Below, in pieces: positions 13,702 through 54,562 of a DNA stretch of 64,000 bases; position 1 is the stretch's first letter, and each line of letters opens with the position of its first letter. The stretch is taken from NCBI RefSeq assembly GCF_900176205.1, contig NZ_LT859959.1, positions 434,001 through 498,000 on the forward strand, written 5' to 3'. This stretch comes from Bradyrhizobium sp. ORS 285. GTDB lineage: Bacteria; Pseudomonadota; Alphaproteobacteria; Rhizobiales; Xanthobacteraceae. The notes under the pieces were generated by a model. The model saw only the letters and a program-made list of their open reading frames with translations, searched no databases and was not told the DNA's origin. The position numbers were made by a program, and so were the translations under genes.

Positions 13702-15570
13702 ATGGACGGGACGGCAGCGAAGGTGTTGGAGAAGCCGGCATTCCGCAAGGTCAATTGGCTGGCGCGCGACATCGATGTCGACAGGCGCGACGATGGCACG
13801 ATCATCATCAAGTCGCGCATTCCGCTGCAGGCCTATGAGCCGCATCTCGCCGCGCCGCTCGCGCGCTGGGCCAAGGAAGCGCCGACGCGAACCTGGCTCG
13901 CGCAGCGCACCGGCCCCGAGCGGCAGTGGCGCAAGCTGTCCTATGCGGAGGCCAAGCGCACTGTCGACGGGCTGACGCAGGGCCTGCTCAATCTGAAGCT
14001 CGACGGCCGCCCGGTCGCGATCCTCTCGGGCAATTCGATCGAGCATGCGCTGATGACGTTCGCCGCGATGCAGGCCCGCTCCCCCGCGGCGCCGGTATCG
14101 CCGGCCTATTCGCTGATGAGCCACGATCACCTCAAGCTGAAATATCTGTTCGGGCTGGTGAAGCCCGGCGTCGTGATGGTGCAGGATGGCCCGACGTTCG
14201 AGAAGGCGCTCAGGGCGATCGATCTCGACGGCGTCACCGTCGTTCATGTCGCGCGTCCCTGCGAGGGCATTCCGAGCGTCAGCTTCACCGATCTCGCCGC
14301 GACGCCCGTCACCGCCGACGTTGATGCCTCCATCGCGCAGATCACGCCTGAAACCGTGGGCAAGCTTCTGTTCACCTCCGGCTCGACCGGCATGCCCAAG
14401 GCGGTCATCAACACCCAGCGGATGATGTGCGCCAACGCGGCGATGATGATGCAGACGCGTCCGCGTGCGCCGGATGCGCCGGTCTCCACGGTGCTGGACT
14501 GGATGCCGTGGAATCATACGATGGGTGGCAATGCGGCGTTCAATCCGCTGCTGATCGACGGTGGCACGCTGTACATCGACGACGGCCGGCCGATGCCCGG
14601 CATGTTCGACGAGACCATCAAGAATCTGCGCGAGGTGTCGCCGACCTACTACGCCAACGTTCCCGCCGGCTACGCCGCGCTGGCCGCGGCGATGGAGAAG
14701 GACGACGCACTGTGCCGCTCCTTCTTCAAGGATCTCGGCATCATGGCCTATGGCGGGGCGCGGCTGCCGGACGATCTCTACGAGCGCATGCAGGCGCTGG
14801 CCGTGAAAACCACCGGCGAGCGCATCGTGTTCTACACCGGCTGGGGCTCGACCGAGACCGCGCCGACCTCCACCGGCACCTATTGGAACACCGAGCGCGT
14901 CGGCCTGATCGGCCTGCCATTCCCCGGCGTCGAGCTGAAGATGGTGCCGACCGGCGACAAATATGAGCTGCGGCTGCGTGGCATCAACGTGATGCCCGGC
15001 TATCTCGGTCAGCCCGAGCTGACGAAGAAGGCGTTCGACGAGGAAGGCTTCTACTGCATCGGCGATGCCGGCGTGTTCGTCGACGCCGACGATCCCGCGC
15101 AGGGCATCATCTTCGCCGGCCGCGTGGTCGAGGATTTCAAGCTGACCACCGGCACCTTCGTGCATGTCGGCTCGCTGCGCACCGATGTGATTGCCGCGGC
15201 GACGCCGGCGATCCATGATGCGCTGGTGGCCGGGCAGGATCGCGAATATGTCGGCCTGCTCGCCTGGCCGAACCTGCACGCCTGCCGGCAACTGGTCGGC
15301 AATCCCGAGGCGACCTTCGAGGATGTGGTGAAGCATCCCGCGGTCATCGATTGCGTCCGCCGCGGTCTCCAGGCCCACAACAAGGAGTGCGAAGGCGCCA
15401 GCAGCCGGCGCATCGGCCGCGCAATGCTGATGGCCGAGCCGCCGTCGATCGATGGCCACGAGCTGACCGACAAGGGCTACATCAACCAGCGCGCCGGCCT
15501 GGAGCGCCGCGCCGCGCTTGTCGAGCGACTCTATGCCGCCACGCCCGACAGCGACGTGATCGTGCTGTGA
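13702..15570 (+). CDS. Feruloyl-CoA synthetase-like aryl/acyl-CoA ligase
   Basis: A 622-residue adenylate-forming ligase. The P-loop LLFTSGSTGMPKAVINTQR is near 217-235. Family-specific blocks are VLDWMPWNHTMGGN, GWGSTETAPTSTGTYW and GRVVEDFKLTTGTFVHVGSLR. The length over 600 and the last block are typical of the feruloyl-CoA synthetase group, which activates hydroxycinnamates or other aryl acids. GGGAG precedes the ATG. A paralog of the same group is couB at 38243. In this cluster the CoA product would pass to the adjacent hydratase, SDR and acyl-CoA dehydrogenases. The exact acid is unknown. Confidence 0.9.
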   Translation: MDGTAAKVLEKPAFRKVNWLARDIDVDRRDDGTIIIKSRIPLQAYEPHLAAPLARWAKEAPTRTWLAQRTGPERQWRKLSYAEAKRTVDGLTQGLLNLKLDGRPVAILSGNSIEHALMTFAAMQARSPAAPVSPAYSLMSHDHLKLKYLFGLVKPGVVMVQDGPTFEKALRAIDLDGVTVVHVARPCEGIPSVSFTDLAATPVTADVDASIAQITPETVGKLLFTSGSTGMPKAVINTQRMMCANAAMMMQTRPRAPDAPVSTVLDWMPWNHTMGGNAAFNPLLIDGGTLYIDDGRPMPGMFDETIKNLREVSPTYYANVPAGYAALAAAMEKDDALCRSFFKDLGIMAYGGARLPDDLYERMQALAVKTTGERIVFYTGWGSTETAPTSTGTYWNTERVGLIGLPFPGVELKMVPTGDKYELRLRGINVMPGYLGQPELTKKAFDEEGFYCIGDAGVFVDADDPAQGIIFAGRVVEDFKLTTGTFVHVGSLRTDVIAAATPAIHDALVAGQDREYVGLLAWPNLHACRQLVGNPEATFEDVVKHPAVIDCVRRGLQAHNKECEGASSRRIGRAMLMAEPPSIDGHELTDKGYINQRAGLERRAALVERLYAATPDSDVIVL

Positions 15571-15762: not shown

Positions 15763-16890
15763 ATGAACTTCGATTTCTCCGACGATCAGAAACAGCTGCG
15801 GGACCAAGCGCGGAAATTCCTGGCCGAGAAGTGCCCGCCGAAAGCGGTGCGCGTCGTGCTCGACGGCAAGGAGGCCTATGACCGCGCGCTGTGGAAGGGC
15901 TTTGCCGAGATGGGCTTCCTCGGCGTCGCCATCCCCGAGGAGTATGGCGGCGCGGGCGCCGGCCATCTCGAACTCTGCGTGATCGCCGAGGAAGTCGGCC
16001 GCGCGCTGGCGCCGGTGCCGTTCTCGTCGACGGTCTATTTGGCTGCGGAAGCGCTGATGCTCGCCGGCAGCGATGCGCAGAAGCAGGCCTGGCTGCCGAA
16101 GATCGCGAGCGGCGAGACGATCGGCACGCTCGCGCTGTTCGAGGGCACCGGCAATCCGTCGCCGAAGGCGATCAAGCTCGCCGCTGCCAATGGCGTGCTC
16201 AATGGCACCAAGAAGCCGGTCGCCGACGGCGCCATCGCCGACCTCATCATCGTCGCCGCGCGCACGGCCTCGACCGGCCGCGACAGCGACATCTCGCTGT
16301 TCCTGGTCGATGCCAAGGCCGGCGGCGTCGAGGCCAAGGCGCTGACCAATCTCGATCCGACCCGCGGCCAGGCCGAGCTCACCTTCACGAATTGCAAGGC
16401 CGAGCCGCTCGGCGCGGCCGGCGAGGGCTGGAGCATCATCAGCCAGGTGCTCGACCGCGCCGCGGTGCTGACGGCGTTCGAGCAGGTCGGCGGCTCCGAT
16501 CGCGCGCTGGAGATGGGCCGCGACTACGCGCTCGACCGTATCGCCTTCGGTCGGCCGATCGGCTCGTTCCAGGCGGTCAAGCACATGCTGGCGGATATGT
16601 ATGTCTCGGCGACGCTCGCGCGCTCCAACGCCTATTACGGCGCCTGGGCGCTTTCGACTAATGCGCCGGAATTGCCGGAAGCGGCGGCCTCGGCGCGCAT
16701 CAGCGCGACGCAGGCCTATCAGCATTGCGGCAAGAACAACATCCAGGTCCACGGCGGCATGGGCTTCACCTGGGAGTTCGACTGCCACATGTACTACCGC
16801 CGCGCCAACGCGCTCGCGCTCGGCCTCGGCAGCCTGTCCTATTGGGAGGATCAGCTGATCGACCGCATGCGCAAGCGCAACGCGGCGTGA
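15763..16890 (+). CDS. Acyl-CoA dehydrogenase, 375-residue subfamily
   Basis: A flavoprotein of the acyl-CoA dehydrogenase superfamily, which introduces a 2,3 double bond and passes electrons to ETF. Helical N-domain MNFDFSDDQKQLRDQARKF, mid-domain beta region, then RIAFGRPIGSFQAVKHMLADM and the C-terminal HGGMGFTWEFDCHMYYRRA. The HGGMGFTWEFD pattern and short length are shared with partner subunits of heteromeric acyl-CoA dehydrogenases (mycobacterial FadE28/29-type pairs). The two longer acyl-CoA dehydrogenases that follow make such pairing plausible, but this is inference. It is the first of three tandem dehydrogenase genes separated by repeats. Confidence 0.9.
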   Translation: MNFDFSDDQKQLRDQARKFLAEKCPPKAVRVVLDGKEAYDRALWKGFAEMGFLGVAIPEEYGGAGAGHLELCVIAEEVGRALAPVPFSSTVYLAAEALMLAGSDAQKQAWLPKIASGETIGTLALFEGTGNPSPKAIKLAAANGVLNGTKKPVADGAIADLIIVAARTASTGRDSDISLFLVDAKAGGVEAKALTNLDPTRGQAELTFTNCKAEPLGAAGEGWSIISQVLDRAAVLTAFEQVGGSDRALEMGRDYALDRIAFGRPIGSFQAVKHMLADMYVSATLARSNAYYGAWALSTNAPELPEAAASARISATQAYQHCGKNNIQVHGGMGFTWEFDCHMYYRRANALALGLGSLSYWEDQLIDRMRKRNAA

Positions 16891-17010: not shown

Positions 17011-18255
17011 ATGAACTTCGATGACACCCCGCAGGAGGCGGCGTTTCGCGCCGAGGCGCGTGCGTGGATTTCGGCCAATGCGCCGAAGCAGTATGAAGAC
17101 GAGCTGCGCGCCTCTTCGCTCGGCCGCACCATGCTGAAGAACGCTAACATTCTCGAGGTCGCCAAGGCCTGGCAGAAGAAGAAGGCCGATGCCGGCTGGG
17201 CCTGCCTGCACTGGCCGAGGGAGTATGGCGGCCGCGGCGCCTCGCCGATCGAGCGCGTGATCTGGCAGCAGGAGGAGGGGCCGTTCGGCAAGCTCTCCGC
17301 AATGTTCATCATCGGCCACGGCATGTGCGGCCCGACCGTGATGGCCTACGCCTCCGAGGAGCACAAGCGGCAGTATCTGCCGCCGCTCGCGTCGGGCGAG
17401 AAGGTGTGGTGCCAGCTGTTCTCCGAGCCGGCGGGCGGTTCCGACGTCGCCGGCCTGCGCACCCGCGCGGAGAAGCGCGGCGACGAGTGGGTGATAAACG
17501 GCCAGAAGATCTGGACCTCGGGCGCGCATTATTCCGACTACGGCATCCTGCTGACGCGCACCGATCCGACCGTGCCGAAGCACAAGGGCCTCACCATGTT
17601 CTTCCTGGACATGAAGAGCCCGGGTGTCGAGGTCCGCCCGATCAAGCAGGCCAGCGGCCACTCGGACTTCAACGAGGTCTATTTCACCGATGTCGTGATC
17701 CCGGACTCGCAGCAACTCGGTGCGGTCAATGACGGCTGGAACGTCGCGCTCACCACTTTGATGAACGAGCGCATGTCGATCGGCGCCGGCGTCGCGACCG
17801 GCTTCCCGGAGCTGTTCGACTTCTGCTCCAACATCATGCTCGACGACCGTCCCGCGATCGAGGACCGCAACGTGCGCTCGAAGCTGGCGAACTGGGCAGT
17901 GAAGGCGAGCGGGCTGAAATACACCAGCATGCGCGCCATCTCCGCGCTGTCGAAGGGCGAGCGTCCCGGACCGGAGAACTCGATCGGCAAGCTCGTCGCG
18001 GGCTCGATGGTGCAGGACGTCGCGACCTACGCGCTCGATCTGCAAGGTGCTGCGGGCGTGCTCAGCGGCCCCGAGGCCGACGTCGCCGGAAAATTCCAGG
18101 CGATGCTGCTGCGCGCGCCCGGCACCCGCGTCGAAGGCGGCACCGACGAGATCATGCGCAACATCATCGCCGAGCGCGTGCTCGGCCTCCCCGGCGACAT
18201 CCGCGTCGACAAGGATTTGCCGTTCAACCAGGTGCCGACCAAGGGCCGGGCGTAG
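17011..18255 (+). CDS. Acyl-CoA dehydrogenase (tandem copy 1)
   Basis: A 414-residue acyl-CoA dehydrogenase. It begins MNFDDTPQEAAFRAEARAW. The FAD-binding signature QLFSEPAGGSDVAGLRTRAE is at ~127-146, followed by WVINGQKIWTSGAHYSDYG. The C-terminal block is GGTDEIMRNIIAERVLGLPG. The protein is very similar to the next gene (18486) along its entire length, so the two arose by tandem duplication. Residues differ mostly in the 270-290 and 350-365 regions, which may alter substrate range. Position in the cluster suggests oxidation of the acyl-CoA made by the ligases nearby. Confidence 0.93.
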   Translation: MNFDDTPQEAAFRAEARAWISANAPKQYEDELRASSLGRTMLKNANILEVAKAWQKKKADAGWACLHWPREYGGRGASPIERVIWQQEEGPFGKLSAMFIIGHGMCGPTVMAYASEEHKRQYLPPLASGEKVWCQLFSEPAGGSDVAGLRTRAEKRGDEWVINGQKIWTSGAHYSDYGILLTRTDPTVPKHKGLTMFFLDMKSPGVEVRPIKQASGHSDFNEVYFTDVVIPDSQQLGAVNDGWNVALTTLMNERMSIGAGVATGFPELFDFCSNIMLDDRPAIEDRNVRSKLANWAVKASGLKYTSMRAISALSKGERPGPENSIGKLVAGSMVQDVATYALDLQGAAGVLSGPEADVAGKFQAMLLRAPGTRVEGGTDEIMRNIIAERVLGLPGDIRVDKDLPFNQVPTKGRA

Positions 18256-18485
18256 ACCCTCATCCTGAGGAGCTGCGCAGCAGCGTCTCGAAGGATGCGG
18301 CCGAGATGGGGGCCTCATGGTTCGAGACGGCGCCAAGAAGCGCCTCCTCACCATGAGGAGCAGCGAATGGAGCCGTAGGGCGGGCTAGCGCAGCGTAACC
18401 CGCCGATGGCTTGAACGAAGCCAGGGAGGTGGCGGGTTACGCCTTCGGCTAACCCGCCCTACGCATATCAAGTGAGGGTCAGGGC
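18256..18485. repeat. Two adjacent inverted-repeat elements (families E and D)
   Basis: 18256-18359 is family E: CCTCATCCTGAGGAGC...GCGTCTCGAAGGATG and the mirrored CATGGTTCGAGACGGCGC...CTCACCATGAGG. 18374-18464 is a family D relative: CGTAGGGCGGGCTAGCGCAG and CGTAACCCGCC, mirrored by GGCGGGTTACGCC and GGCTAACCCGCCCTACG. They separate the duplicated acyl-CoA dehydrogenase genes. Confidence 0.8.
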
Positions 18486-19733
18486 ATGAACTTCGACGAC
18501 ACCCCGCAGGAAGCCGCCTTTCGCGAGACCGCGCGCGCCTGGGTCGCCGCCAACGCGCCCAGGGAGTTGGAGGAAGAGCTCGCGAGCTCCTCGCTCGGGC
18601 GCATCCGGCTGAAGCACGCCGACATCGTCGAGGTCGGCAAGGCCTGGCAGAAGAAGAAGTCCGATGCCGGCTGGGCGTGTTTGCACTGGCCGAAGGAGTA
18701 TGGCGGCCGCGGCGCCACGCCGATCGAGCGCGTGATCTGGCAGCAGGAAGAGGGCGTCTACGGCAAGCTGACACAGCCGTTCCAGATCGGCGAAGGCATG
18801 TGCGGCCCGACCGTGATGGCCTATGGCAGCGAGGAGCATAAGCGCCGCTACCTGCCGAAGCTCGCCTCCGGCGAGGAGATCTGGTGCCAGCTGTTCTCCG
18901 AGCCCGCCGGCGGCTCGGATGTCGCGGGCCTGCGCACCCGCGCGGAGAAGCGCGGTGACGACTGGGTCATCAACGGCCAGAAGATCTGGACCTCCGGCGC
19001 GCACTACTCTGACTACGGCCTGTTGATCACGCGCACCGATCCCAATGTGCCCAAGCACAAGGGGCTCACGATGTTCTTCCTGGATATGAAGAGCCCGGGT
19101 GTCGAAGTCCGTCCGATCAAGCAGGCCAACGGCATGCAGGAGTTCAACGAGGTCTATTTCACGGATGTCGTGATCCCTGACTCGCAGCGGCTCGGCGCGG
19201 TCGGCGACGGCTGGAACGTGTCGCTGACGACCTTGATGAACGAGCGCATGTCGATCGGCGCGCGGCTCGCGACCGGCTTCCCTGAGATGTTCGAGTTCTG
19301 CGCCAACCTGATGACCGACAACGGTCTGGCGATCGATGATCGCGCCACGCGCGCCAAGCTTGCGTCCTGGGCCGTCAAGGCGAGCGGGCTGAAGTACACC
19401 AGCTACCGCGCGATCTCGGCGCTCTCCAAGGGCGATCGGCCGGGTCCGGAGAACTCGATCGGCAAGCTCGTCGCCGGCGTCATGCTGCAGGACATCGCGA
19501 CCTACGCCATGGACCTCGAAGGCGCGGCAGGCGTGCTCACCGGCGCGGACGAGGCGGAGACCCAGGGCCAGTTCCAGCAGATGCTGCTGACGGCGCCCTC
19601 GATGCGCATCGCTGGCGGCACCGACGAGATCCTGCGCAACATCATCGCCGAGCGCGTGCTCGGCCTGCCGGGTGACATTCGCGTGGACAAGGACGTGCCG
19701 TTCAACAAGGTCCCGACCAAGGGACGTAGTTAG
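18486..19733 (+). CDS. Acyl-CoA dehydrogenase (tandem copy 2)
   Basis: A 415-residue paralog of the gene at 17011, with the same motifs: MNFDDTPQEAAFRETARAW, QLFSEPAGGSDVAGLRTRAE, WVINGQKIWTSGAHYSDYG and GGTDEILRNIIAERVLGLPG. The duplication is old enough for scattered substitutions throughout. Both copies keep intact FAD and active-site regions, so both are probably functional. They may act on different chain lengths or pair with the shorter dehydrogenase at 15763. The ATG follows GAGGGTCAGGGC at the end of a repeat element. Confidence 0.93.
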   Translation: MNFDDTPQEAAFRETARAWVAANAPRELEEELASSSLGRIRLKHADIVEVGKAWQKKKSDAGWACLHWPKEYGGRGATPIERVIWQQEEGVYGKLTQPFQIGEGMCGPTVMAYGSEEHKRRYLPKLASGEEIWCQLFSEPAGGSDVAGLRTRAEKRGDDWVINGQKIWTSGAHYSDYGLLITRTDPNVPKHKGLTMFFLDMKSPGVEVRPIKQANGMQEFNEVYFTDVVIPDSQRLGAVGDGWNVSLTTLMNERMSIGARLATGFPEMFEFCANLMTDNGLAIDDRATRAKLASWAVKASGLKYTSYRAISALSKGDRPGPENSIGKLVAGVMLQDIATYAMDLEGAAGVLTGADEAETQGQFQQMLLTAPSMRIAGGTDEILRNIIAERVLGLPGDIRVDKDVPFNKVPTKGRS

Positions 19734-19831
19734 ACCCTCATCCTGAGGGGCCGCAGCGTCTCGAAGGATGAGGCCCGTGATGGGGCCTCATGGTTCGAGA
19801 CGGCGCTGCGCGCCTCCTCACCATGAGGGGA
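19734..19831. repeat. Inverted-repeat element family E copy 2
   Basis: CCCTCATCCTGAGGGGC...GCAGCGTCTCGAAGGATGAG, mirrored by CTCATGGTTCGAGACGGCGC...CCTCACCATGAGGGG. It matches the element at 18256-18359. The two copies follow the stop codons of the two duplicated acyl-CoA dehydrogenases in the same position, so the repeat may have been duplicated with the gene. Confidence 0.8.
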
Positions 19832-19860
19832 CGCACTTGCTACGAATTGAAAGTGATCTC

Positions 19861-20565
19861 ATGACCACAGCATCGGGCTCTGCCCAGAGCGACCCCATCA
19901 CCGTCCTCGAAAACCTGATGGCGGCGCGCTTCTCCTGCCGCAGCTTTCGCGCTGATCCCGTGCCGCGTGCGACCATCGAGCGTATCCTGATAGCTGCGCA
20001 GAAGACCGCGTCCTGGTGCAACAGCCAGCCGTGGCGCGTCGAGATCACCTCGGGTGCGGCGACCGAAGCCTTCCGCAAAGTTATGTATGCTGCGGCGTCG
20101 AGCGGCAAGCCGGCCTCCGGCGATTTTCCGTTTCCGCGTGAATACAAGGGCGTCTATCTCGACCGTCGGCGCGAGAGCGGCTTCCAGCTCTACAACGCGC
20201 TTGGGATCGAACGTGGCGACAAGGCCGGCTACGCCCGGCAGGCGCTGGAGAACTACAACCTGTTCGGCGCGCCGCATGTGGCCATCATCCACAGCGACGA
20301 GGCGCTCGGCACTTACGGCGCGATCGACTGCGGCGGCTATGTCACGAGCTTCATGCTGGCGGCGCAGGCGCTGGGTGTCGCTACCGTACCGCAGGCCGCG
20401 CTGGCCTTTCACGCCGATGTGGTGCGGCAGCATTTCGGCCTCGGTGACGACCGCAAGGTCGTCTGCGGCATCTCGTTCGGCTATGCTGATCTCGGCCACA
20501 AGGCCAATTCCTATCGCACCACTCGCGCCGCCATCGCCGACACCGTCCGCTTCGTGGACGAGTAG
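19861..20565 (+). CDS. Nitroreductase family protein
   Basis: A 234-residue FMN-dependent NAD(P)H oxidoreductase of the nitroreductase fold. The N-terminal FMN motif is RFSCRSFRADPVP (near 20-32), then ASWCNSQPWRVEI, a conserved core glycine region YGAIDCGGYVTSFMLAAQALG and the C-terminal CGISFGYAD. The start at 19861 is chosen because the upstream frame is repeat sequence; the ribosome site is weak. Members reduce quinones, nitroaromatics or enones. It is last in the co-oriented catabolic cluster, so reduction of an aromatic intermediate is possible but unproven. Confidence 0.88.
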   Translation: MTTASGSAQSDPITVLENLMAARFSCRSFRADPVPRATIERILIAAQKTASWCNSQPWRVEITSGAATEAFRKVMYAAASSGKPASGDFPFPREYKGVYLDRRRESGFQLYNALGIERGDKAGYARQALENYNLFGAPHVAIIHSDEALGTYGAIDCGGYVTSFMLAAQALGVATVPQAALAFHADVVRQHFGLGDDRKVVCGISFGYADLGHKANSYRTTRAAIADTVRFVDE

Positions 20566-21011: not shown

Positions 21012-21197
21012 ATGGATTCCATGAACACGCCGTCCAACCTCTACGCCCTCGAGGTGGATGAGGCGACGCTCCTTGGTCACCGCCTCCTGAAGGCGTTCCA
21101 CAGGCTGAGGCTGACGCGGCACCGGGAGCAGCTCATTGCGCTGGCTGAACGGCTGGTGGAAGATGAAGAAAGATATCCGGCAGGGCCTGGCGGCTGA
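21012..21197 (+). CDS. Small helical protein overlapping the braI 3' end
   Basis: A 61-residue frame (M D S M N T P S N L Y...) with genome-typical third-position GC. The core LLKAFHRLRLTRHREQLIAL followed by AERLVEDEERY is a strongly charged helix resembling C-terminal tails seen in some small HTH regulators, but no DNA-binding domain is present. Alternative starts are GTG 21003 and ATG 21021; none has a strong ribosome site. The last 65 bases overlap the 3' end of braI on the other strand, so the transcripts are convergent and could interfere. Function is unknown. Confidence 0.5.
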   Translation: MDSMNTPSNLYALEVDEATLLGHRLLKAFHRLRLTRHREQLIALAERLVEDEERYPAGPGG

Positions 21198-21816
21198 CCT
21201 CTTCGAGTCCCTGCCAGGTCAGCGTCGGGCGCGTCAGGCCGATCTGAGCGCAAAGCGACTTCCACGTCGTCTCGTCACAATCGACCAGGACCGCCATCAC
21301 CGCCATTCCGTCCATCATATGCGGGACCCCCAGCGGCCGCGCCTTCCAGCCGCATTTTTCAAACCGCGGCAGCCACCAGGTTTCGAGCACGATCGAGAAG
21401 CCGGTCAGTCCGATCGAGATGCCGTACTCCATGATGGCGGTCAGCAGCAGCAGGTCGACGCGCGGACCCGCGTGCTCGCCGCGGCGCTCGGGGATTACGA
21501 AGATGCGTGACAGCTCGTAGACGTCCGGCCGCTGAATCGGCCCGCGCAGATTGAGGTAGGGAAAGATCTCGCTCATCAGCGTCGGCAGCAGCGTGGGCAC
21601 CGCGCGCATCGCGCCGATCAATTGGCCGTTATCGATGCAGAACAGGTAGACCGCATCCTCTGTATCGAACTGGTCGATCTCGCGCCCGTCCGGGCGGTCG
21701 AGGTCCATCCACTTGCGCTGCTTGACGTAGATATCGTGACGCAGCCGGTAATAAGGATCGAAATATTTCTCGTAGAGCGCGCGATTATCTTTTCGAACGA
21801 CATGAATCTCAGGCAT
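21133..21816 (-). CDS. braI: LuxI-family acyl/aryl-homoserine lactone synthase
   Basis: A 227-residue autoinducer synthase that joins an acyl or aryl group to S-adenosylmethionine to give a homoserine lactone signal. All hallmark LuxI residues are present: Arg26 and Trp36 (RLRHDIYVKQRKW), Asp48 and Asp51 (IDQFDTED), Arg71 (GAMRAVP), Phe85 (EIFPYL), Glu101 and Arg104 (YELSRIFVIPERR). Overall sequence type matches the BraI/RpaI/BjaI group from Bradyrhizobium and Rhodopseudomonas. In these the acyl donor is a CoA thioester (cinnamoyl-, p-coumaroyl-, isovaleryl-CoA) rather than acyl-ACP. The start at 21816 is fixed by the conserved N-terminus MPEIHVV; longer frames overlap braR. It lies 82 bp after braR on the same strand. 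Which acyl group is used cannot be told from sequence. Confidence 0.9.
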   Translation of the reverse strand: MPEIHVVRKDNRALYEKYFDPYYRLRHDIYVKQRKWMDLDRPDGREIDQFDTEDAVYLFCIDNGQLIGAMRAVPTLLPTLMSEIFPYLNLRGPIQRPDVYELSRIFVIPERRGEHAGPRVDLLLLTAIMEYGISIGLTGFSIVLETWWLPRFEKCGWKARPLGVPHMMDGMAVMAVLVDCDETTWKSLCAQIGLTRPTLTWQGLEEVSRQALPDIFLHLPPAVQPAQ

Positions 21817-21898
21817 CGAAACCCCCGGTCGTCTGAAGCAACTTGGGGTTTGCAGATTGCTGATGTGCTCGACTTGATCCAGTGGCAAAAAAGCCAGA

Positions 21899-22633
21899 TC
21901 AGATCGAGATCTCGCCGTTGACAAGAGCCGTCGCAACCGTCGCAGTCTTGTTCTTGGTGGCGAGCTTGCGTTGGGCCTCTTCGAGGTGCCAACGCACGTT
22001 GCGTTCGGAGACGCCCAGGATGCGCGCGGTCTCCCAGGCGGTCTTGCCGCGCGCGGCCCAGCACAACACCTCGGCCTCCATCCGCGACAGGCGTCGACCC
22101 TGGCCGCCCGCCGCCGCGCGCGCCAAGGCGCGCAGCCTCGAATGGGTGAAGATGCTGATGAGATGCAGCGCACCGCGGGCATCGGGCGCGAGATTGGGCT
22201 CTTCGCCGGCCAGGCTGACGGCGCCGACCGCATCGTCGTAATGGATTGGCACGCAGAAGCCTTCGCGCAATCGGAAATCGCGCGCCCGCGTCATCACCCG
22301 ATGAGCACCCGGCTCCTCGTTCCGATCATAGGGCACCTCCGACCAGGCGAATGGATTCAAAGTCGACAGGCAATGCCGCGGAATTGGATCGTAGCGGTGA
22401 AACTGCTCCCGCGCATACATGTCGAACCACTCCCGAGGCCAGCCATTGGCCAGGATGGTCTGCTGCAGCGATTGGCCCGCCGCCGGTACGCCGGCCATGA
22501 TGTAGGCATGGAAGCCCAGATCACCGATCATCTTCTCGAATTGGGAGAGCACGCTGGCGCTGGTCTCCGACGCTTCGATCGCGTCGACGTAGTCCAGAGC
22601 CCGGCGTCCCCAATACGCGTCTATCACTTGCAT
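21899..22633 (-). CDS. braR: LuxR-family quorum-sensing regulator
   Basis: A 244-residue transcription factor. Residues ~15-165 form the autoinducer-binding domain, with Trp69 and Tyr73 (PREWFDMYAREQ), Asp82 (RYDPIP) and Trp98 (FAWSE), the usual ligand-pocket residues. Residues ~180-240 form a LuxR-type HTH (RRLSRMEAEVLCWAARGKTA...ILGVSERNVRWHLEEAQRKL). The ATG at 22633 has GGAGA eight bases upstream; the longer frame to 22819 would read into the neighbouring gene's region. It is directly upstream of braI, so it is its cognate receptor. A 22-bp palindrome lies 106 bp upstream of the start. Confidence 0.9.
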   Translation of the reverse strand: MQVIDAYWGRRALDYVDAIEASETSASVLSQFEKMIGDLGFHAYIMAGVPAAGQSLQQTILANGWPREWFDMYAREQFHRYDPIPRHCLSTLNPFAWSEVPYDRNEEPGAHRVMTRARDFRLREGFCVPIHYDDAVGAVSLAGEEPNLAPDARGALHLISIFTHSRLRALARAAAGGQGRRLSRMEAEVLCWAARGKTAWETARILGVSERNVRWHLEEAQRKLATKNKTATVATALVNGEISI

Positions 22634-22790: not shown

Positions 22791-23582
22791 TCAAAACCGC
22801 GGGGCTCGCTTTTCTGCAAACGATCTCATGCCTTCGCGGATCTCGTCGCCGCTCAAGCTGTCCTGATGTCTGCGGCGAGCTGCCGCATCATCGAGCGCGC
22901 CGTGGGCAAACTCGTTGATCGCGCGCTTCATGCCGCGCATGGCGGCGGGGGCATTGCCCGCGAGCTGCGTTGCTAATCGGTCCACCTCGGCATCGAGCGA
23001 GTCGGCCGCGACCATGCTGGTCAGATAGCCGATGCGCAGCATCTCGGCCGCGCCGATCTTCTCTGCGGTGAGGAACAGGCGCTTGGCGTTGTCGACGCCG
23101 AGCCGGGAGACATACCGCTTGATGCCGCTGGGGTAGTAATGGAGGCCGAGGCGCGCGGCGGGCATGAACATCTCGGCCGTGTCGACGCCGATGCGGAAAT
23201 CGCACGCCAGCGCGAGGTCGGTCGAGCCGCCATAGACCCCGCCATTGATCCGGCAGATCGTCGGCAGGGCCAGGTCTTCGAGCCGGTCCGCGACCGCTTC
23301 GAACGACGGCCCCGCGCCGCCGGCCGGGCTCGTCTCTGCCCCGCCGATCGAGCCGAGATCATAGCCGGCGCTGAAGGCTCGGCCTGTTCCGGTCAGGATC
23401 AGCACACGCAAACTGGCGTCGGCCTCGACGCGATCGAACAAGCCAATCAGTGTGCCCAGATCTTCCGGCTGCAGCCGGTTGAGATGGCGCGGACGGTTGA
23501 GCCGGATGGTGGCGCGCGAGCCCTCGATGCTGAGAAGCGGCGGGGTCGGCGCGTCGTCGGCGGGGGTGATCCGGTTTGTCAT
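22791..23582 (-). CDS. Enoyl-CoA hydratase/isomerase family protein
   Basis: A 263-residue crotonase-family protein. The oxyanion-hole regions are GTGRAFSAGYDLGSIG (near 62-77) and RINGGVYGGSTDLALACDF (near 107-125), followed by MPAARLGLHYYPSGIKRYV. The classic catalytic glutamates of hydratases are not obvious at the second site (ARLGLHYYPSG), so an isomerase or other crotonase activity is possible. Its ATG overlaps the stop codon of the upstream K+ channel gene (ATGA), indicating translational coupling. Pairing of an ion channel and a CoA enzyme is unusual. Confidence 0.88.
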   Translation of the reverse strand: MTNRITPADDAPTPPLLSIEGSRATIRLNRPRHLNRLQPEDLGTLIGLFDRVEADASLRVLILTGTGRAFSAGYDLGSIGGAETSPAGGAGPSFEAVADRLEDLALPTICRINGGVYGGSTDLALACDFRIGVDTAEMFMPAARLGLHYYPSGIKRYVSRLGVDNAKRLFLTAEKIGAAEMLRIGYLTSMVAADSLDAEVDRLATQLAGNAPAAMRGMKRAINEFAHGALDDAAARRRHQDSLSGDEIREGMRSFAEKRAPRF

Positions 23583-32157: not shown

Positions 32158-33177
32158 ATGAGGAAGACGCTTCTGGCGTTGGCGCTGGCTGCCGGTGTGA
32201 CCACCCCCGCGCTCGCGCAGGACAAGACGTTCGATCTGAAGATTTCGCACTGGGTCCCGGCCAGCCATCCGCTGCAGAAGGCGCTGGAGGATTGGGCCGC
32301 GTCGGTCGAGAAGGCCTCCGGCGGCACCATCAAGGGCAAGGTGTTCCCGGCGCAGCAGCTCGGCAAGGCGTTCGATCATTACGACATGGCGCGCGACGGC
32401 ATCGCCGATGTCACTTATGTGAACCCCGGCTATCAGCCCGGCCGTTTCCCGATCATCGGCGCCGGCGAGTTGCCGTTCCTGGTCTCCGACGCCAAGGGCG
32501 GCTCGGAAGGCCTGGACGCGTGGTACCGCAAATATGCCGAGAAGGAGATGAAGGACGTCAAATACTGCCTCGCCTTCGTGCATACGCCGTCCTCGCTGCA
32601 CACCCGGACCAAGAAGGTCACGATGCCCGAGGACCTCAAGGGCATGAAGATCCGCCCGGCGGATGCGACCATCGCGAATTTCGTCACCCAGCTCGGCGGC
32701 ACCAATGTGCAATCGTCGGCGCCGGAGGTGCGCGACATCATCGAGCGCGGTGTCGCCGACGGTGTGTTCTTCCCGGCCGGCTCCCTGGTGCTGTTCGGCG
32801 TCGACAAGGTCACCAAATTCCACATCGACGCCCCGATGTACGTCACGACCTTCGTCTTCGTCATGAACAAGGACAAGTACAACCAGATGTCGCCCGCGCA
32901 GAAGAAGGCGATCGACGACAACTGCAATACCGAGGCCGCAGGCAAGGTCGGCGAGCCCTGGGGCAAGTTCGAGGACGCCGGCGTCGACAAGATCAAGGCG
33001 GAAGCCGGCCAGGAGGTCTACAAGCTCACGCCCGAGCAGACCGCCGCCTGGAAGAAGGCCTCCGAGCCGCTGTTCAAGACCTGGGCCGACGGCGTCAAGA
33101 AGACCGGCGTCGACGCCGACGCCGCGATGACCGAGCTGAAAGCCTCGCTCGCCAAGTACAACGCCCTGGCGCAGTAA
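32158..33177 (+). CDS. tarP: TRAP transporter solute-binding protein (DctP family, TarP-like)
   Basis: A 339-residue periplasmic binding protein. MRKTLLALALAAGVTTPALA is a Sec signal peptide. The mature protein begins KTFDLKISHWVPASHPLQK, as usual for DctP proteins, and contains the carboxylate-binding Arg region GMKIRPADATIANF. Start has GGAGAGG upstream. It heads dctQ- and dctM-type genes. In R. palustris the equivalent TarPQM system, next to couAB, takes up hydroxycinnamates; the same gene order here supports that substrate by analogy. Confidence 0.85.
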   Translation: MRKTLLALALAAGVTTPALAQDKTFDLKISHWVPASHPLQKALEDWAASVEKASGGTIKGKVFPAQQLGKAFDHYDMARDGIADVTYVNPGYQPGRFPIIGAGELPFLVSDAKGGSEGLDAWYRKYAEKEMKDVKYCLAFVHTPSSLHTRTKKVTMPEDLKGMKIRPADATIANFVTQLGGTNVQSSAPEVRDIIERGVADGVFFPAGSLVLFGVDKVTKFHIDAPMYVTTFVFVMNKDKYNQMSPAQKKAIDDNCNTEAAGKVGEPWGKFEDAGVDKIKAEAGQEVYKLTPEQTAAWKKASEPLFKTWADGVKKTGVDADAAMTELKASLAKYNALAQ

Positions 33178-33454
33178 GGCCTTCGACCTAAGCTGTTTGC
33201 GCGGCAGACGGTGCGCCCCCTCTCCCCGTTCTTCACGGGGAGAGGGCGGGGGTGAGGGGCAGCGGCACGGGTGGTGCTCGCGGCCGAACCTGTAGACCTC
33301 CATCAGCGTGTTGCCGGGCGGCCGCCCCTCACCCCACCCCTCTCCCCGCCCTGGCGAAGCTGCGCTTCGCTAGGGCGAGGCGAGGGAGCCCACCGCCTGC
33401 TGCGCAGCAGCTCGCTTCAATTTGTCGGACGTTTGACTTGAGAACGGACACGCC
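33178..33454. repeat. Intergenic repeat elements (family C) between tarP and tarQ
   Basis: 33213-33265 holds CCCTCTCCCCGTTCTTCACG and GGGAGAGGGCGGGGGTGAGG. 33325-33372 holds CCCCTCACCCCACCCCTCTC followed by a TGCGCTTCGCTAGGGCGAGG hairpin. No gene is supported. The element splits the TRAP operon, so it is either transcribed or may act as an attenuator or processing site. Confidence 0.75.
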
Positions 33455-33964
33455 ATGCAGCGCGCCTTCATGGATCGGATCATCGACGGGATCGAGTGGA
33501 TCGCCGCGTTCTTCGTCGGCATCGTCGCGCTCGACATTTTTCTGTCGGTGCTGCTGCGCAATACGCTGAACTACGCGATCCCGGATTCGTTCGACATCGG
33601 CCGCATGCTGCTCGGCATCCTGATCTTCTGGGGCATCGCCGCGACATCGTATCGCGGCACCCACATCACCGTAGATCTCATCTGGGGCAATGTCGGCCCA
33701 CGCTACCAGCGCTGGATCGACATCTTCGCCACCCTGGTCCTGCTGTTCGTCGTCACCGTGCAGACCTGGACCCTGTTCGACAAGGTCCGCGGCACCTATG
33801 AGGACAACGTCCTCACCTTCGACCTGCACATGCCGACCTGGCCGTTCTTCGCCATCGCCTGGATCGGCGACGTCTCGGCGGTGCTCCTGATCGCCATCCG
33901 GACCTATCGCCTGATCTTCCATCCCGAGGAGATTCATGACCCTCACGTCAAGCCCACGGAGTAG
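33455..33964 (+). CDS. tarQ: TRAP transporter small permease (DctQ family, TarQ-like)
   Basis: A 169-residue inner-membrane protein with four hydrophobic helices (IEWIAAFFVGIVALDIFLSV, MLLGILIFWGIAAT, WIDIFATLVLLFVVTVQTW, FFAIAWIGDVSAVLLIAI). The conserved DctQ segment SYRGTHITVDLIW lies between helices 2 and 3. It sits between the binding protein and the large permease, the standard TRAP order. The last codons run within 6 bp of the dctM start. Confidence 0.9.
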   Translation: MQRAFMDRIIDGIEWIAAFFVGIVALDIFLSVLLRNTLNYAIPDSFDIGRMLLGILIFWGIAATSYRGTHITVDLIWGNVGPRYQRWIDIFATLVLLFVVTVQTWTLFDKVRGTYEDNVLTFDLHMPTWPFFAIAWIGDVSAVLLIAIRTYRLIFHPEEIHDPHVKPTE

Positions 33965-33970
33965 TGCCGC

Positions 33971-35290
33971 ATGAGCACGGATGCGGTCGCCGTCATCGGC
34001 TTTGTTGCGCTGTTCGCCCTGATGCTCCTGCGCGTGCCCGTCGGCATGGCGATGGGCCTCGTCGGCGTCTCCGGCTTCGCTTATCTCGTCAACGGCACGG
34101 CGGCGCTGAAGCTGGTCGGCCAGACCTCGATGCGCACGGTCACGGACTACACGTTCGGCGTGATTCCGATGTTCCTGTTGATGGGAACGTTCGTCTCCAA
34201 CTCCGGCATGAGCCGTGAGCTGTTCCGCGCCGCCAACGGCTTCGTCGGCCATCTCCGCGGCGGCCTGGGGATCGCCACCGTCGCCGCCTGCGGCGGCTTC
34301 GCCGCGATCTGCGGCTCGTCGGTGGCGACCGCCGCGACCTTCTCGGCGGTGGCCTATCCGGAGATGCGCCGCTTCGGCTATCCGCAATCCTTCGCCACCG
34401 GCGTCATCGCCGCCGGCGGCACGCTCGGTGCCATGCTGCCGCCGTCGACCGTGCTCGCGGTCTACGGCATCATCACCGAGCAGGACATCGGCAAGCTGTT
34501 CATCGCCGGCATCATCCCGGGCCTGCTGGCGATGACGATGTACATGATCACCATTACGGTGATCGGCAAGGTCAGGCCGGATTTCCTGCCCAAGGGCGAG
34601 GCGCCGCCGTGGCGCGAGCGTATCGCGGGGCTGAAGGGCATCTGGGCGCCGGTGCTGCTGTTCCTGTTCGTGATCGGCGGCCTCTATGGCCTGCCGTTCC
34701 TGCCGCGCTTCACCCCGACCGAGGCCGGTGGCGTCGGCGCCACCGGCGCGTTCCTGATCGGCGTGTTCACCGGGCGGCTCGACAAGGAGAAGATCCTGGC
34801 CTCGCTGCTGCAGGCGACACGCACCGCGGCCGCCGTGTTCACCGTGCTGATCGGCGCGCTGATCTTCGGCTATTTCCTCACGGTGACGCAGACGCCGCAG
34901 AAGGTCACGGAATTCCTCACCGGCCTCGGCCTCGGCCCCTACGGCGTGCTGGCGCTGATCATGGTGATGTATCTCGTGCTCGGCTGCCTGATGGACGCCA
35001 TGGCGATGATCATCCTGACCGTGCCGATCATCTTCCCGGTGATCTCGCATCTCGGTTTCGATCCGATCTGGTTCGGCGTCATCATCGTCATGACCGTCGA
35101 GCTCGGCCTGATCCATCCGCCGGTCGGCATGAACGTGTTCGTGATCAAATCGGTGGTGAAGGACGTGTCATTCTCCACGATCTTCAAGGGCGTGCTGCCC
35201 TTCGTCGCCACCGATTTGATCCGGCTGGTGATCCTGATCGCCTTCCCGCTGCTCGCCACCTGGCTGCCGCAACAGATGATGAACCGATGA
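33971..35290 (+). CDS. tarM: TRAP transporter large permease (DctM family, TarM-like)
   Basis: A 439-residue inner-membrane protein with about twelve hydrophobic segments. Family blocks are VPVGMAMGLVGVSGFAYL, FGVIPMFLLMGTFVSNSGM, GGLGIATVAACGGFAAICGS, GGTLGAMLPPSTVLAVYG and ELGLIHPPVGMNVFVI. It couples substrate import to the sodium or proton gradient. Its stop overlaps the ATG of the DUF3237 gene (ATGA), so that protein is co-translated. Confidence 0.93.
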   Translation: MSTDAVAVIGFVALFALMLLRVPVGMAMGLVGVSGFAYLVNGTAALKLVGQTSMRTVTDYTFGVIPMFLLMGTFVSNSGMSRELFRAANGFVGHLRGGLGIATVAACGGFAAICGSSVATAATFSAVAYPEMRRFGYPQSFATGVIAAGGTLGAMLPPSTVLAVYGIITEQDIGKLFIAGIIPGLLAMTMYMITITVIGKVRPDFLPKGEAPPWRERIAGLKGIWAPVLLFLFVIGGLYGLPFLPRFTPTEAGGVGATGAFLIGVFTGRLDKEKILASLLQATRTAAAVFTVLIGALIFGYFLTVTQTPQKVTEFLTGLGLGPYGVLALIMVMYLVLGCLMDAMAMIILTVPIIFPVISHLGFDPIWFGVIIVMTVELGLIHPPVGMNVFVIKSVVKDVSFSTIFKGVLPFVATDLIRLVILIAFPLLATWLPQQMMNR

Positions 35291-38242: not shown

Positions 38243-40144
38243 ATGACCGCGCAAACAACAAAAATCACACAGGGGGGAACGGACAACACGGCGAGGAGCG
38301 CCAGTGTTCATCCGTTGCGCGCCATCTCGTTCAATGATCCCGTCGTCGATGTCGAGCGCCGCGACGACGGCACCATCTATCTCCGGCCGAAGCAGCCGCT
38401 TGGCGATTTCCCGCAGCGGATCACCGACCGGCTGCATCACTTCGCCAAGGAAGCGCCGGAGCGCGTTTTCATGGCCGAGCGCGTCGGTCCCGAGGGCTGG
38501 CGCGAGCTGAGCTACGGCACCTTGCTGGCGGCGAGCCGGCACATCGCCTCCGGCCTGCTCGCCCGCGGCCTGTCGCCGGACCGCCCGGTGATGATCCTCT
38601 CCGGCAATTCGATCGACCATGCACTCGTCGCGTTCGGCTCGCTCTATGCCGGCGTGCCGTTCTGCCCGGTGTCGCCGGCCTATTCGCTGGTGTCGCGCGA
38701 CTACGGCAAGCTCGCTTATCTGATGAAGCTGCTGACGCCGGGCCTCGTGTTCGTCGATGACGCCGACAAGTTCGCGGACGCTCTGATCGCCAACGTGCCC
38801 GAGGGCGTCGAGATCGTGGCCTCGTTCGGTGAGGTGCCGGGCCGCAAGGTCACGATGCTGTCCGAGCTGATCGCCTCGCCACTGTTCGCCGGCCTCGATG
38901 CCATCAATGACAAGATCGGCCCGGACACGATCGCGAAATTCCTGCTGACCTCGGGCTCGACCGGCAACCCCAAGGCCGTCATCAACACCCAGCGCATGAT
39001 CTGCGCCAACCAGGTGATGATCCGCGAGACGCTCGCCTTCCTGAAGGACGAGCCGCCCGTCATCATCGACTGGCTGCCGTGGAATCACACCTTCGGCGGC
39101 AACCACAACATCGGCCTGACCCTGTTCAACGGCGGCTCGATGTATCTCGATCAGGGCAAGCCGGTGCCCGGCGGCATCGAGGAGACGGTGCGGAATCTGC
39201 GCGAGATCTCGCCGACCGTCTATTTCAACGTCCCCAAGGGCTACGAGTCGCTGCTGCCGTATTTCCGCGAGGACCCCGGCCTGCGGAAGACCTTCTTCCG
39301 CCGCCTGCACGCGATGTTCTTCTCCGGTGCCGCGCTCGCGCCGCACGTCTGGAACGAGCTCGACGAGCTCTCGGTGTCCGAGACGGGATATCGCGTGCCG
39401 ATGCTCACCGGCCTCGGCTCGACGGAAACCGCGCCGTTCTTCATGTCGGTCAATCCGCGCACCAGCCGCTCCGGCCACGTTGGTTTGCCAGTGCCCGGCA
39501 ACGAGGCCAAGCTCGTGCCCAACAACGGCAAGATGGAAGTGCGCGCCAAGGGCCCGAACGTCACGCCGGGCTATTGGCGTCTGCCCGAAGTCTCTGCCGC
39601 TGCCTTCGACTCCGAAGGCTACTACCAGATGGGCGACGCGCTGAAACCCGCCGATCCCAACGACTTCAACGCCGGCTTCGATTTCGACGGCCGCGTCGCC
39701 GAGGATTTCAAGCTGGCGTCCGGCACCTGGGTCTCGGTGGGGCCACTCAGAGCGCGCTTCATCGCCGCTTGCGCGCCGCTGGCGCGCGACGTCGTCATCG
39801 CCGGCATCAACCGCGACGAGATCGCCGCCATCGTCGTGCTCGATCTCGACGGTTGCCGGCTGATCAACGCGACATTGCCGTTCGACGATCTCGCCGAAAC
39901 CGCGTCGGATCCGCTGATCGTGGCCGCGTTCCGCGAGCGCTTCGCCAAATTCCTGAAGACCGCGACAGGCTCATCGACGCGGATCACGCGCGCGGTGCTG
40001 CTCGGCCTGCCGCTGTCGATCGACAAGGGCGAGGTCACCGACAAGGGCTCGATCAACCAGCGCGCCGTGTTGGAGAACCGCAAGGACCTGATCGAGCGCA
40101 TCTACGCGTCGACGCCGGACGACGACATCATCGTCGCCGGCTGA
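38243..40144 (+). CDS. couB: Hydroxycinnamate (feruloyl/p-coumaroyl)-CoA ligase
   Basis: A 633-residue adenylate-forming ligase of the feruloyl-CoA synthetase group. P-loop FLLTSGSTGNPKAVINTQR, then IIDWLPWNHTFGGNHN, GLGSTETAPFF and GRVAEDFKLASGTWVSVGPL; the C-terminal lysine region is DKGEVTDKGSINQR. It is paralogous to the ligase at 13702 and shares the same family-specific blocks. The start lies one base after the couA stop. Expected reaction: p-coumarate (or ferulate, caffeate, cinnamate) + ATP + CoA to the aryl-CoA. This product is also the type of donor used by BraI/RpaI-class synthases. Confidence 0.88.
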   Translation: MTAQTTKITQGGTDNTARSASVHPLRAISFNDPVVDVERRDDGTIYLRPKQPLGDFPQRITDRLHHFAKEAPERVFMAERVGPEGWRELSYGTLLAASRHIASGLLARGLSPDRPVMILSGNSIDHALVAFGSLYAGVPFCPVSPAYSLVSRDYGKLAYLMKLLTPGLVFVDDADKFADALIANVPEGVEIVASFGEVPGRKVTMLSELIASPLFAGLDAINDKIGPDTIAKFLLTSGSTGNPKAVINTQRMICANQVMIRETLAFLKDEPPVIIDWLPWNHTFGGNHNIGLTLFNGGSMYLDQGKPVPGGIEETVRNLREISPTVYFNVPKGYESLLPYFREDPGLRKTFFRRLHAMFFSGAALAPHVWNELDELSVSETGYRVPMLTGLGSTETAPFFMSVNPRTSRSGHVGLPVPGNEAKLVPNNGKMEVRAKGPNVTPGYWRLPEVSAAAFDSEGYYQMGDALKPADPNDFNAGFDFDGRVAEDFKLASGTWVSVGPLRARFIAACAPLARDVVIAGINRDEIAAIVVLDLDGCRLINATLPFDDLAETASDPLIVAAFRERFAKFLKTATGSSTRITRAVLLGLPLSIDKGEVTDKGSINQRAVLENRKDLIERIYASTPDDDIIVAG

Positions 40145-42199: not shown

Positions 42200-43345
42200 A
42201 TGAGGAAGGCCTATCTGGCTGCGGCTGGCGTCATTGCGATGATCGCGTCGGCTCCGGCGCTGGCGCAGACCAGCGAGATCACCATCGGCATCACCACGAC
42301 CACGACGGGTCCGGGCGCAGCGCTCGGCATTCCCGAGCGCAATGCGCTGGAATTCGTGCCGAAGGAGATCGGCGGCGTGCCGCTGAAGGTGATCGTGCTC
42401 GACGACGGCGGCGATCCGACCACGGCGACCACCAATGCCCGCCGCTTCGTGACCGAATCCAAGGCTGACATCATCATGGGCTCGGCGCTGACCCCGCCGA
42501 CGATCGCGGTGTCCAACGTCGCCAACGAGGCCGGCATTCCGCATTTCGGCTTGGCGCCGTTCCCGGTCACCCCGGAGCGCACCAAGTGGTCGGTCGTGAT
42601 GCCGCAGCCGGTGCCGATCATGGGCAAGGTGCTCTACGAGCACATGAAGGCCCATAACGTGAAGACCGTCGGCTATATCGGCTATTCCGACTCTTACGGC
42701 GATCTCTGGTTCAACGACCTCAAGAACCAGGGCGTGCCGATGGGCGTCACCATCGTCGACGAGGAGCGCTTCGCGCGTCCCGATACGTCCGTCACCGGCC
42801 AGGTGCTGAAGCTGGTCGCCGCCAACCCGGATGCCATCCTGGTCGGCGCCTCGGGCACCGCGGCGGCCCTGCCGCAGACCGAATTGCGCGAGCGCGGCTA
42901 CACCGGCCTGATCTACCAGACCCACGGTGCGGCGAGCATGGACTTCATCCGCATCGCCGGCAAGGCAGCGGAAGGCGTGATCATGGCCTCCGGCCCGGTG
43001 ATGTCGCCGGAGACCCAGGACGACAGCGCGCTGACCAAGGCCCCCGGCCTCGAGCTGAACAAGGCCTATGAGGCCAAGTACGGCCCGAACAGCCGCAGCC
43101 AGTTCGCCGGTCACTCCTTCGACGCGTTCGAGATCCTCAAGCGCGTCATCCCGGTGGCGCTGAAGACCGCGAAGCCCGGCACGCCGGAGTTCCGCGAGGC
43201 GATCCGCCAGGCGCTGCTGAGCGAGAAGGACCTCGCGGCCTCGCAGGGCGTCTACAACTTCACCGAGAAGGATCGCTCCGGCCTCGACGACCGCGCCCGC
43301 ATCATCCTGACCGTGAAGGACGGCAAGTACGTCCCGGCGAAATGA
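42200..43345 (+). CDS. couP: ABC transporter substrate-binding protein (CouP-like)
   Basis: A 381-residue periplasmic binding protein of the branched-chain amino acid (type I) class. MRKAYLAAAGVIAMIASAPA with LAQ is the signal peptide. The mature start SEITIGITTTTTGPGAALGI is family-like, and GSALTPPTIAVSNVANEAGI lines the binding cleft. GGGAGGAC precedes the ATG. In R. palustris CouP, with CouSTU, binds and imports p-coumarate and related aromatics. Permease and ATPase genes lie 2.6 kb downstream on the opposite strand. Confidence 0.82.
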   Translation: MRKAYLAAAGVIAMIASAPALAQTSEITIGITTTTTGPGAALGIPERNALEFVPKEIGGVPLKVIVLDDGGDPTTATTNARRFVTESKADIIMGSALTPPTIAVSNVANEAGIPHFGLAPFPVTPERTKWSVVMPQPVPIMGKVLYEHMKAHNVKTVGYIGYSDSYGDLWFNDLKNQGVPMGVTIVDEERFARPDTSVTGQVLKLVAANPDAILVGASGTAAALPQTELRERGYTGLIYQTHGAASMDFIRIAGKAAEGVIMASGPVMSPETQDDSALTKAPGLELNKAYEAKYGPNSRSQFAGHSFDAFEILKRVIPVALKTAKPGTPEFREAIRQALLSEKDLAASQGVYNFTEKDRSGLDDRARIILTVKDGKYVPAK

Positions 43346-52753: not shown

Positions 52754-52954
52754 GTGGGGAGACTCCTTCTCGGCCTTGGAGCTTGGCCTTGTTGTTGGAC
52801 TCGCCGCGATCAGGGCGACTCGTTTCACTCCGAAGGCGTCCCCATAGCCCAGCCGCGCGCGCGGCGTAACCGCCGGCGACGCATGACCGCCGTTCCGTGA
52901 ACTCCTAGCTTAAGGATTAGTGGGAAAAGAAAGCTGACTTGTTCGTAGATGAAA

Positions 52955-52981
52955 CCTCCTGCGGCGTGACGCCGCAGGAGG
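52955..52981 (-). terminator. Terminator after binding-protein paralog 2
   Basis: On the minus strand CCTCCTGCGGC pairs with GCCGCAGGAGG around five bases and is followed by TTTC. It lies 19 bp past the stop of the gene at 53000. Confidence 0.8.
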
Positions 52982-52999
52982 CATAGTCAGTTCGTCGTA

Positions 53000-54223: not shown

Positions 54224-54562
54224 TGTGCGTATCTCCCGTGTTGTTCTCGATGATGTGTCGCGGCTTCCTTGCTGGAAGCTCTTGGTGACACAGGAACTAT
54301 AGCAGAGCTGGTGCGGCCACGCTGCGACATCACGGCACGGGCCGTGTTTTCGCGGCTGCCTGGGATGTGCAATTGCGAGAAGGCGCAATCTCGGCGGGTG
54401 GGTGCTTTGCGAGAACAGCTTGAGATCAGTCAGACGGTGTCGCTTCACCGCTGGTCGAACGGGCATGCCGCGCATGAAAAAGCCCCCCGTGCCGAGGGCA
54501 CGGAGGGCCAGTGGAGATCGGCACCGCTCGTTAGCGGCGATGCGCGATGTCTCTAATTTGAG
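54224..54562. other. Intergenic region between binding-protein paralogs 2 and 3
   Basis: It contains the terminator of paralog 3 (54476-54509) and must hold the promoter of paralog 2. The remainder, including a plus-strand short frame, shows no coding signal. Confidence 0.6.
54476..54509 (-). terminator. Terminator of the Liv-type transporter operon
   Basis: On the minus strand CCGTGCC-CTC-GGCACGG with flanking GGCCCT/GGGGGGC arms is followed by TTTTTC. It is 54 bp past the stop of paralog 3, the last gene of the operon that begins at 59215. Confidence 0.88.

Follow-up and report, generated by a model that had tools for sequence, protein, structure and literature searches.

LuxI-type enzymes that draw on CoA-linked donors form a clade that includes BjaI, RpaI and BraI (PMC4234381), and a Trp-Trp indole platform, Trp146-Trp147 in RpaI, has been described as a marker of CoA donors (PMC8188788). 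Other features that define the class are the absence of basic residues from the ACP-binding helix, for which a sequence logo has been published (PMC4234381), and kinetics that favor acyl- or aryl-CoA over acyl-ACP. The signal of the RpaI-RpaR system of Rhodopseudomonas palustris is p-coumaroyl-homoserine lactone (HSL), and Gln124 of RpaI forms a hydrogen bond with the hydroxyl of the p-coumaroyl group (PMC8188788). The BjaI-BjaR system of Bradyrhizobium uses isovaleryl-HSL, and BRADO0941 of strain ORS278 has been published as the cinnamoyl-HSL synthase BraI (PMC3899966, PMC10470506 and PMC5977203). The name BraI is also borne by different Burkholderia synthases, which are distinct from bradyrhizobial BraI.

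The window analyzed here, a stretch of 64,000 nucleotides from Bradyrhizobium sp. ORS 285, is part of a single contig of 7,797,098 bases in its own genome, and positions are those of the window. It contains a luxI-luxR pair that is very probably the BraR-BraI system of photosynthetic/Aeschynomene Bradyrhizobium, predicted to use an aryl-HSL, most likely cinnamoyl-HSL, and most likely autoinducing. As a pair, it adds one genome to those known to carry this system. Its genes are as follows.

21133..21816, minus strand: braI, LuxI-family, CoA-dependent aryl-HSL synthase, predicted cinnamoyl-HSL synthase (Pfam, PDB relatives, identities, tree)
21899..22633, minus strand: braR, LuxR-family receptor/regulator (Pfam; 93% identity to the BTAi1 LuxR protein)

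The LuxI-LuxR pair and the class of the synthase

Both genes are intact. Reading of the open frames showed that braI starts with ATG and encodes 227 residues with no internal stop, and that braR, which precedes braI by 82 bp on the same strand, runs from an ATG at 22633 to a stop at 21899 and encodes 244 residues. A longer alternative frame for braR, with a TTG start, extends to 22819; the ATG at 22633 is consistent with the alignment start in close relatives. BraI matched the Pfam family Autoind_synth at 74 bits (cut-off 24), and BraR matched Autoind_bind at 108.9 bits and GerE at 46.3 bits, so that ligand-binding and DNA-binding domains are both present. Assignment of the two proteins to the LuxI and LuxR families is far beyond chance, and the LuxI-LuxR pair that the initial annotation had placed at 21133..22633 was thereby upheld. 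The NCBIfam acyl-HSL synthase models gave only matches far below their cut-offs when compared with BraI.

Comparison with solved structures identified 6wn0, a “4-coumaroyl-homoserine lactone synthase” (RpaI), as the best relative of BraI (E 9.9e-87). BjaI (5w8a; E 5.7e-46) came second and 6wns third, and TofI and LasI were much more distant. The best 80 of the 253 relatives found in named genomes included proteins from SRS-191 (99% identity), B. aeschynomenes (97%), STM 3809 (94%), BTAi1 (93%), STM 3843 (89%) and Tv2a-2 (80%), together with seven Rhodopseudomonas loci at 54-57%. A whole-genome search of the genus, in which the ORS278 orthologue (G100) was 95% identical, returned a relative with an E value of at most 1e-30 in 148 of 265 genomes. 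Identity was at least 79% in 15 of these, including the genome under study (hereafter BraI-type genomes), 53-55% in three and 35-44% in the others.

In a tree of 57 LuxI rows, the BraI clade comprised 17 rows, including that of the window, which nested with BTAi1 and ORS278 in a group of 10 rows (support 99/94). The RpaI clade was separate (11 rows, 100/98), the BjaI-type rows likewise formed a clade of their own, and TofI and the second LuxI of this genome fell outside the CoA group on long branches. Inspection of the BraI sequence revealed the indole platform as Trp147-Trp148; the two residues were kept in 120/120 among the matches listed (120 of 379) and in 80 of the 81 LuxI frames from the fetched loci, the exception being the second LuxI of this genome. 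On these sequence criteria, the synthase is assigned to the acyl/aryl-CoA-dependent LuxI class, its donor preference being a prediction. The phylogeny proposed as a check in the initial annotation thus placed the protein in the CoA clade and not among acyl-ACP enzymes, and the tree, the platform and the identities to BTAi1 and ORS278 agree with the earlier choice of the name BraR-BraI and of the CoA-dependent class.

The second luxI gene of this genome (L001:1435-2163; C1:6555109-6555834) encodes a protein without the Trp-Trp pair that lies outside the CoA clade. Close relatives occur in 6/265 genus genomes, its own included, and a luxR-like frame, recognized by eye, lies beside it in divergent orientation.

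The predicted signal

The proposed course of events is that BraI would couple S-adenosylmethionine with an aryl-CoA, most likely cinnamoyl-CoA, and release cinnamoyl-HSL, which BraR would bind. The receptor would then most likely switch on braI via a degenerate lux-box between the two genes, and neighboring genes for phenylpropanoid uptake and CoA ligation would provide the substrate of BraI.

The identity of the signal is predicted mostly from orthology to ORS278 BraI, from which the window protein differs at 12 of 224 aligned residues (15 of 227 for BTAi1 BraI). The receptors are 91% (ORS278) and 93% (BTAi1) identical, and gene order and flanking genes are alike. Ala69 and Thr146 of the window protein are both Ser in ORS278, and these two positions could contact the pocket. 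The initial annotation had held that the signal was not predictable and might be a new HSL; that view finds no support in view of the published cinnamoyl-HSL assignment of the ORS278 orthologue, with which the pocket residue described below is in accord, although BraI may yet make another product or a mixture.

The position of RpaI Gln124 is occupied by Leu125 in the window protein, so the hallmark residue of RpaI is absent. Leu is found here in 17/17 rows of the BraI clade, the window included, and Gln in 11/11 rows of the RpaI clade, whereas the rows that adjoin the BraI clade have Gln (P0106, P0111, P0114 and P0118), Arg (P0116 and P0120) or Met (P0119). Among the matches listed (120 of 379), Leu occurred 109 times, Gln 7, Arg 3 and Met once; for the 103 relatives of at least 74% identity among those same 120, the counts were 102 Leu and 1 Gln (P0070). 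Leu125 would fit an aryl ring that lacks a 4-hydroxyl group, i.e. cinnamoyl, but is not decisive: the residue alone cannot name cinnamoyl because CoA-clade rows whose product is unknown, among them Bosea, Methylobacterium and Salinarimonas, carry Leu as well. A hint at the residue level that favors cinnamoyl over p-coumaroyl is nevertheless an addition to what was known of the system. The Arg forms (P0116 and P0120) might accept an acyl group that is acidic or unusual in some other way.

An enzyme of the same class could instead have a hydroxylated aryl-HSL as its main signal (p-coumaroyl-, feruloyl- or caffeoyl-HSL), for which the couB-like and fcs1 ligases described below would activate plant acids. 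Apparent couA/couB/tar/couP homologues do lie within the window, and BTAi1 fed with p-coumarate yielded p-coumaroyl-HSL, as cited in PMC4659178. RpaI, despite its Gln124, also yielded cinnamoyl-, caffeoyl- and feruloyl-HSL when supplied with a suitable ligase (PMC4659178). We regard a hydroxylated main signal as decidedly improbable, given that the residue making the hydroxyl contact in RpaI (PMC8188788) is replaced by Leu in the window and throughout the clade of the cinnamoyl-HSL maker, and that the signal published for ORS278 is cinnamoyl-HSL.

The chances are poorer still for a fatty or branched acyl-CoA enzyme like BjaI, or for a new signal. BjaI has the CoA class and the indole platform in common with BraI at 41% identity, and BraI expressed in E. 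coli strongly activated a LuxR receiver (PMC6107141), which suggests that it is able to use other acyl groups; in the excerpts available, chemistry among close homologues was found reported for ORS278 and BTAi1 only. Against this stand the separate clade of the BjaI-type rows, their Met at position 125, and the far higher identity of the window protein to the BTAi1 and ORS278 enzymes. An acyl-ACP-dependent LuxI, with which BraI has the family fold and catalytic residues in common and nothing more, is next to impossible, as it is contradicted by the tree, by the indole platform, and by the position of TofI and the second LuxI on long branches outside the group.

The receptor and a candidate lux-box

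If BraI is a cinnamoyl-HSL synthase, as preferred here, BraR is the likely receptor of its product. BraR is 48-53% identical to the Rhodopseudomonas LuxR proteins encoded beside luxI, in addition to the much closer BTAi1 and ORS278 proteins. Nine residues that we take to be the canonical ones of the LuxR family (TraR numbering) were all found in BraR. The following element lies between the two genes.

21879..21898, minus strand: candidate lux-box, imperfect dyad TCTGG-N8-CCACT, right after the braR stop and upstream of braI (weak; position shared with clear dyads elsewhere)

A strong dyad of the CCTGTCC-GGACAG type directly follows the luxR stop in 7/7 Rhodopseudomonas loci (L011-L017), and an ACTGG-N8-CCAGT dyad is present after the luxR stop in the basal BraI-type loci L009, L010, L092 and L093 (the L101 sequence equals that of L009). 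Within the group to which the window belongs, the right half is CCACTGG in 10/10 loci and the left half CTGG in 9/10 (CTGT in L100), and it is this mismatch of the halves that makes their dyad symmetry poor; the L008 dyad is also poor. We read the window element as a degenerate lux-box, a weak candidate that is much less clear than its counterpart in the RpaI-RpaR system, with which the window otherwise has the indole platform and a dyad directly after the luxR stop in common at 56% synthase identity. Autoinduction of braI by BraR is likewise a prediction. A search with the 19-base pattern found one exact match in the genome, the 21879-21898 site itself. No BraR regulon emerged from the motif over the whole genome, in which sites with up to two mismatches numbered 25, fewer than the 68 of the control. 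Across the BraI-type loci, the candidate decays: it is a good dyad in the four basal loci and a poor one within the window's group.

The neighborhood of braRI

The genes on either side of the pair that bear on its possible substrate supply are as follows.

13702..15570, plus strand: fcs1, acyl-CoA synthetase PRK12582, aryl/phenylpropanoyl-CoA ligase type, substrate inferred (NCBIfam NF009232)
15763-16890, 17011-18255 and 18486-19733, plus strand: three acyl-CoA dehydrogenases (Pfam)
19768..20565, plus strand: ntr, nitroreductase-family protein, convergent with braI (Pfam, synteny)
22791..23582, minus strand: ech2, enoyl-CoA hydratase/crotonase family, same strand as braR and upstream of it (NCBIfam)
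32158..35290, plus strand: TRAP transporter, TarPQM-like, with DctP-like (32158-33177), small (33455-33964) and DctM-like (33971-35290) subunits (similarity to R. palustris XCP; subunit names and small subunit by eye)
37441-38241, plus strand: crotonase-like frame, CouA-like, adjoining fcs2 (similarity to R. palustris XCP)
38243..40144, plus strand: fcs2, apparent CouB homologue, p-coumarate-CoA ligase type (similarity to R. palustris XCP)
42200..43345, plus strand: CouP-like periplasmic binding protein (R. palustris XCP, PDB matches)

Outward from braI, ntr is followed by the three acyl-CoA dehydrogenases, the PRK12582 synthetase, a crotonase, an SDR and a TetR-like gene, the last three names being our reading of the sequences. 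Fcs1 matched NF009232 at 1071 bits (cut-off 777); comparison with solved structures, in which the best match reached 55 bits, did not point to one substrate. The gene order of the dehydrogenase trio is identical in genomes with and without braI. The two dehydrogenases within 17011-19733 share 80% identity, and this tandem duplication is present in 10/10 control genomes.

On the side of braR, ech2 is followed by a cyclic-nucleotide-type ion channel (Pfam) and, ∼10-21 kb away, by the TRAP transporter, the crotonase-like frame, the second ligase, an SDR and the CouP-like protein, several names in this cluster having been assigned by eye. Fcs2 is 44% identical to Fcs1. The order TRAP-crotonase-ligase-binding protein is common to R. 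palustris XCP (L113) at 57-85% identity: Fcs2 and the CouA-like frame match XCP genes at 72 and 80% identity, with the order conserved next to TRAP and ABC transporter genes, and the DctP-like, DctM-like and CouP-like proteins are 57, 76 and 85% identical (the last over 81% of its length) to products of genes beside fcs2 there. The best PDB matches of the CouP-like protein were 3tx6 (686 bits) and 4jb0 (684 bits), the latter of which we take to be CouP. The couA, couB and couP names therefore denote apparent homologues, recognized by position, similarity and literature and not by a labeled sequence. The order in the window agrees with how PMC3610893 describes the CouPSTU/TarPQM locus. In R. 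palustris GJ-22, transcription of rpaI stayed low when couB was lost (PMC10305029).

braI was located between the two ligase genes in 12/12 BraI-type genomes, its own included, in which a single contig holds the three genes, the contigs of the remaining three (G101, G102 and G172) not allowing the test. This shared address counts as one event and not twelve, as conservation since the gain may be simple inheritance. The flanking clusters were also found on their own. fcs1 was present in 244 of the 265 genomes of the genus (E ≤1e-200), on which count the neighboring cluster was rejected as specific to quorum sensing, and in 10/10 control genomes, hand-picked as lacking a BraI-type gene and having a placed fcs1, the fcs1 cluster occurred without braRI. 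In four of the ten controls, ech2 followed ntr without braRI, three within 0.5-1.5 kb and one at 4.5 kb; no ech2 turned up in the stretches fetched from the other six. fcs1 and fcs2 lay within 35 kb of each other in those four controls; in the other six they were separated by >60 kb or placed on different contigs. The ech2-ntr spacing was ∼0.4 kb in R. palustris XCP and ∼1.9 kb in JSC-3b, with no lux genes between. The 11-21 kb retrieved around luxI of the RpaI-RpaR loci L011-L017 contained none of the window's neighbors. A search of the six empty ech2-ntr gaps for remnants of braRI gave nothing convincing, with one 31-residue LuxI match at E 0.05.

Given that both clusters exist without braRI and that the R. 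palustris flanks lack lux genes, the best reading is that braRI was gained once, between neighbors already in place, the aromatic-acid locus being the older. This evidence for the arrival of braRI beside genes for aromatic-acid activation adds to the known system; no such description was found in the excerpts of the literature searched.

The R1-I1-crotonase circuit of Mesorhizobium japonicum (PMC10470506) resembles the window in having a CoA-type LuxI near a crotonase-family gene. In Mesorhizobium that gene is 8 bp from I1 and essential for the signal (PMC10470506), whereas ech2 of the window lies upstream of braR and is also found beside ntr without braRI. The occurrence of ech2-ntr without braRI, in four of the ten controls and in R. 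palustris XCP, weakens the case for ech2 as a third gene of the pair.

A search with PF00221 found one gene only in this genome, that for HutH, beside a gene read as that for HutI (imidazolonepropionase), and hence no dedicated phenylalanine ammonia-lyase was seen there. Family counts for 12 of the 14 other BraI-type genomes (all except G101 and G172) were one gene each in 10 and zero in 2. With no ammonia-lyase seen, endogenous cinnamoyl-CoA would need another route, and the adjacent dehydrogenases and ligases are candidates for its source. These bacteria reportedly make cinnamoyl-CoA without added cinnamate (Ahlgren 2011).

The neighboring genes may feed BraI. A fuller version, which we put forward tentatively and think rather unlikely, is that braRI sits in an older phenylpropanoid locus in which cinnamoyl-CoA would come from the fcs1/couB-like ligases or from 3-phenylpropanoyl-CoA via the adjacent acyl-CoA dehydrogenases, without phenylalanine ammonia-lyase. 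If true, the signal would report aromatic-acid catabolic flux besides cell density. The locus in any case offers a testable gene set for how these bacteria form cinnamoyl-CoA without added cinnamate.

The stretch 32158-59215 of the window is dense in transport genes, including the TRAP transporter, the CouP-like protein and several genes of LivK/LivH/LivM/LivG type, named by eye except for the CouP-like and R. palustris-matched genes. Three binding-protein genes lie in tandem at 51527-55750.
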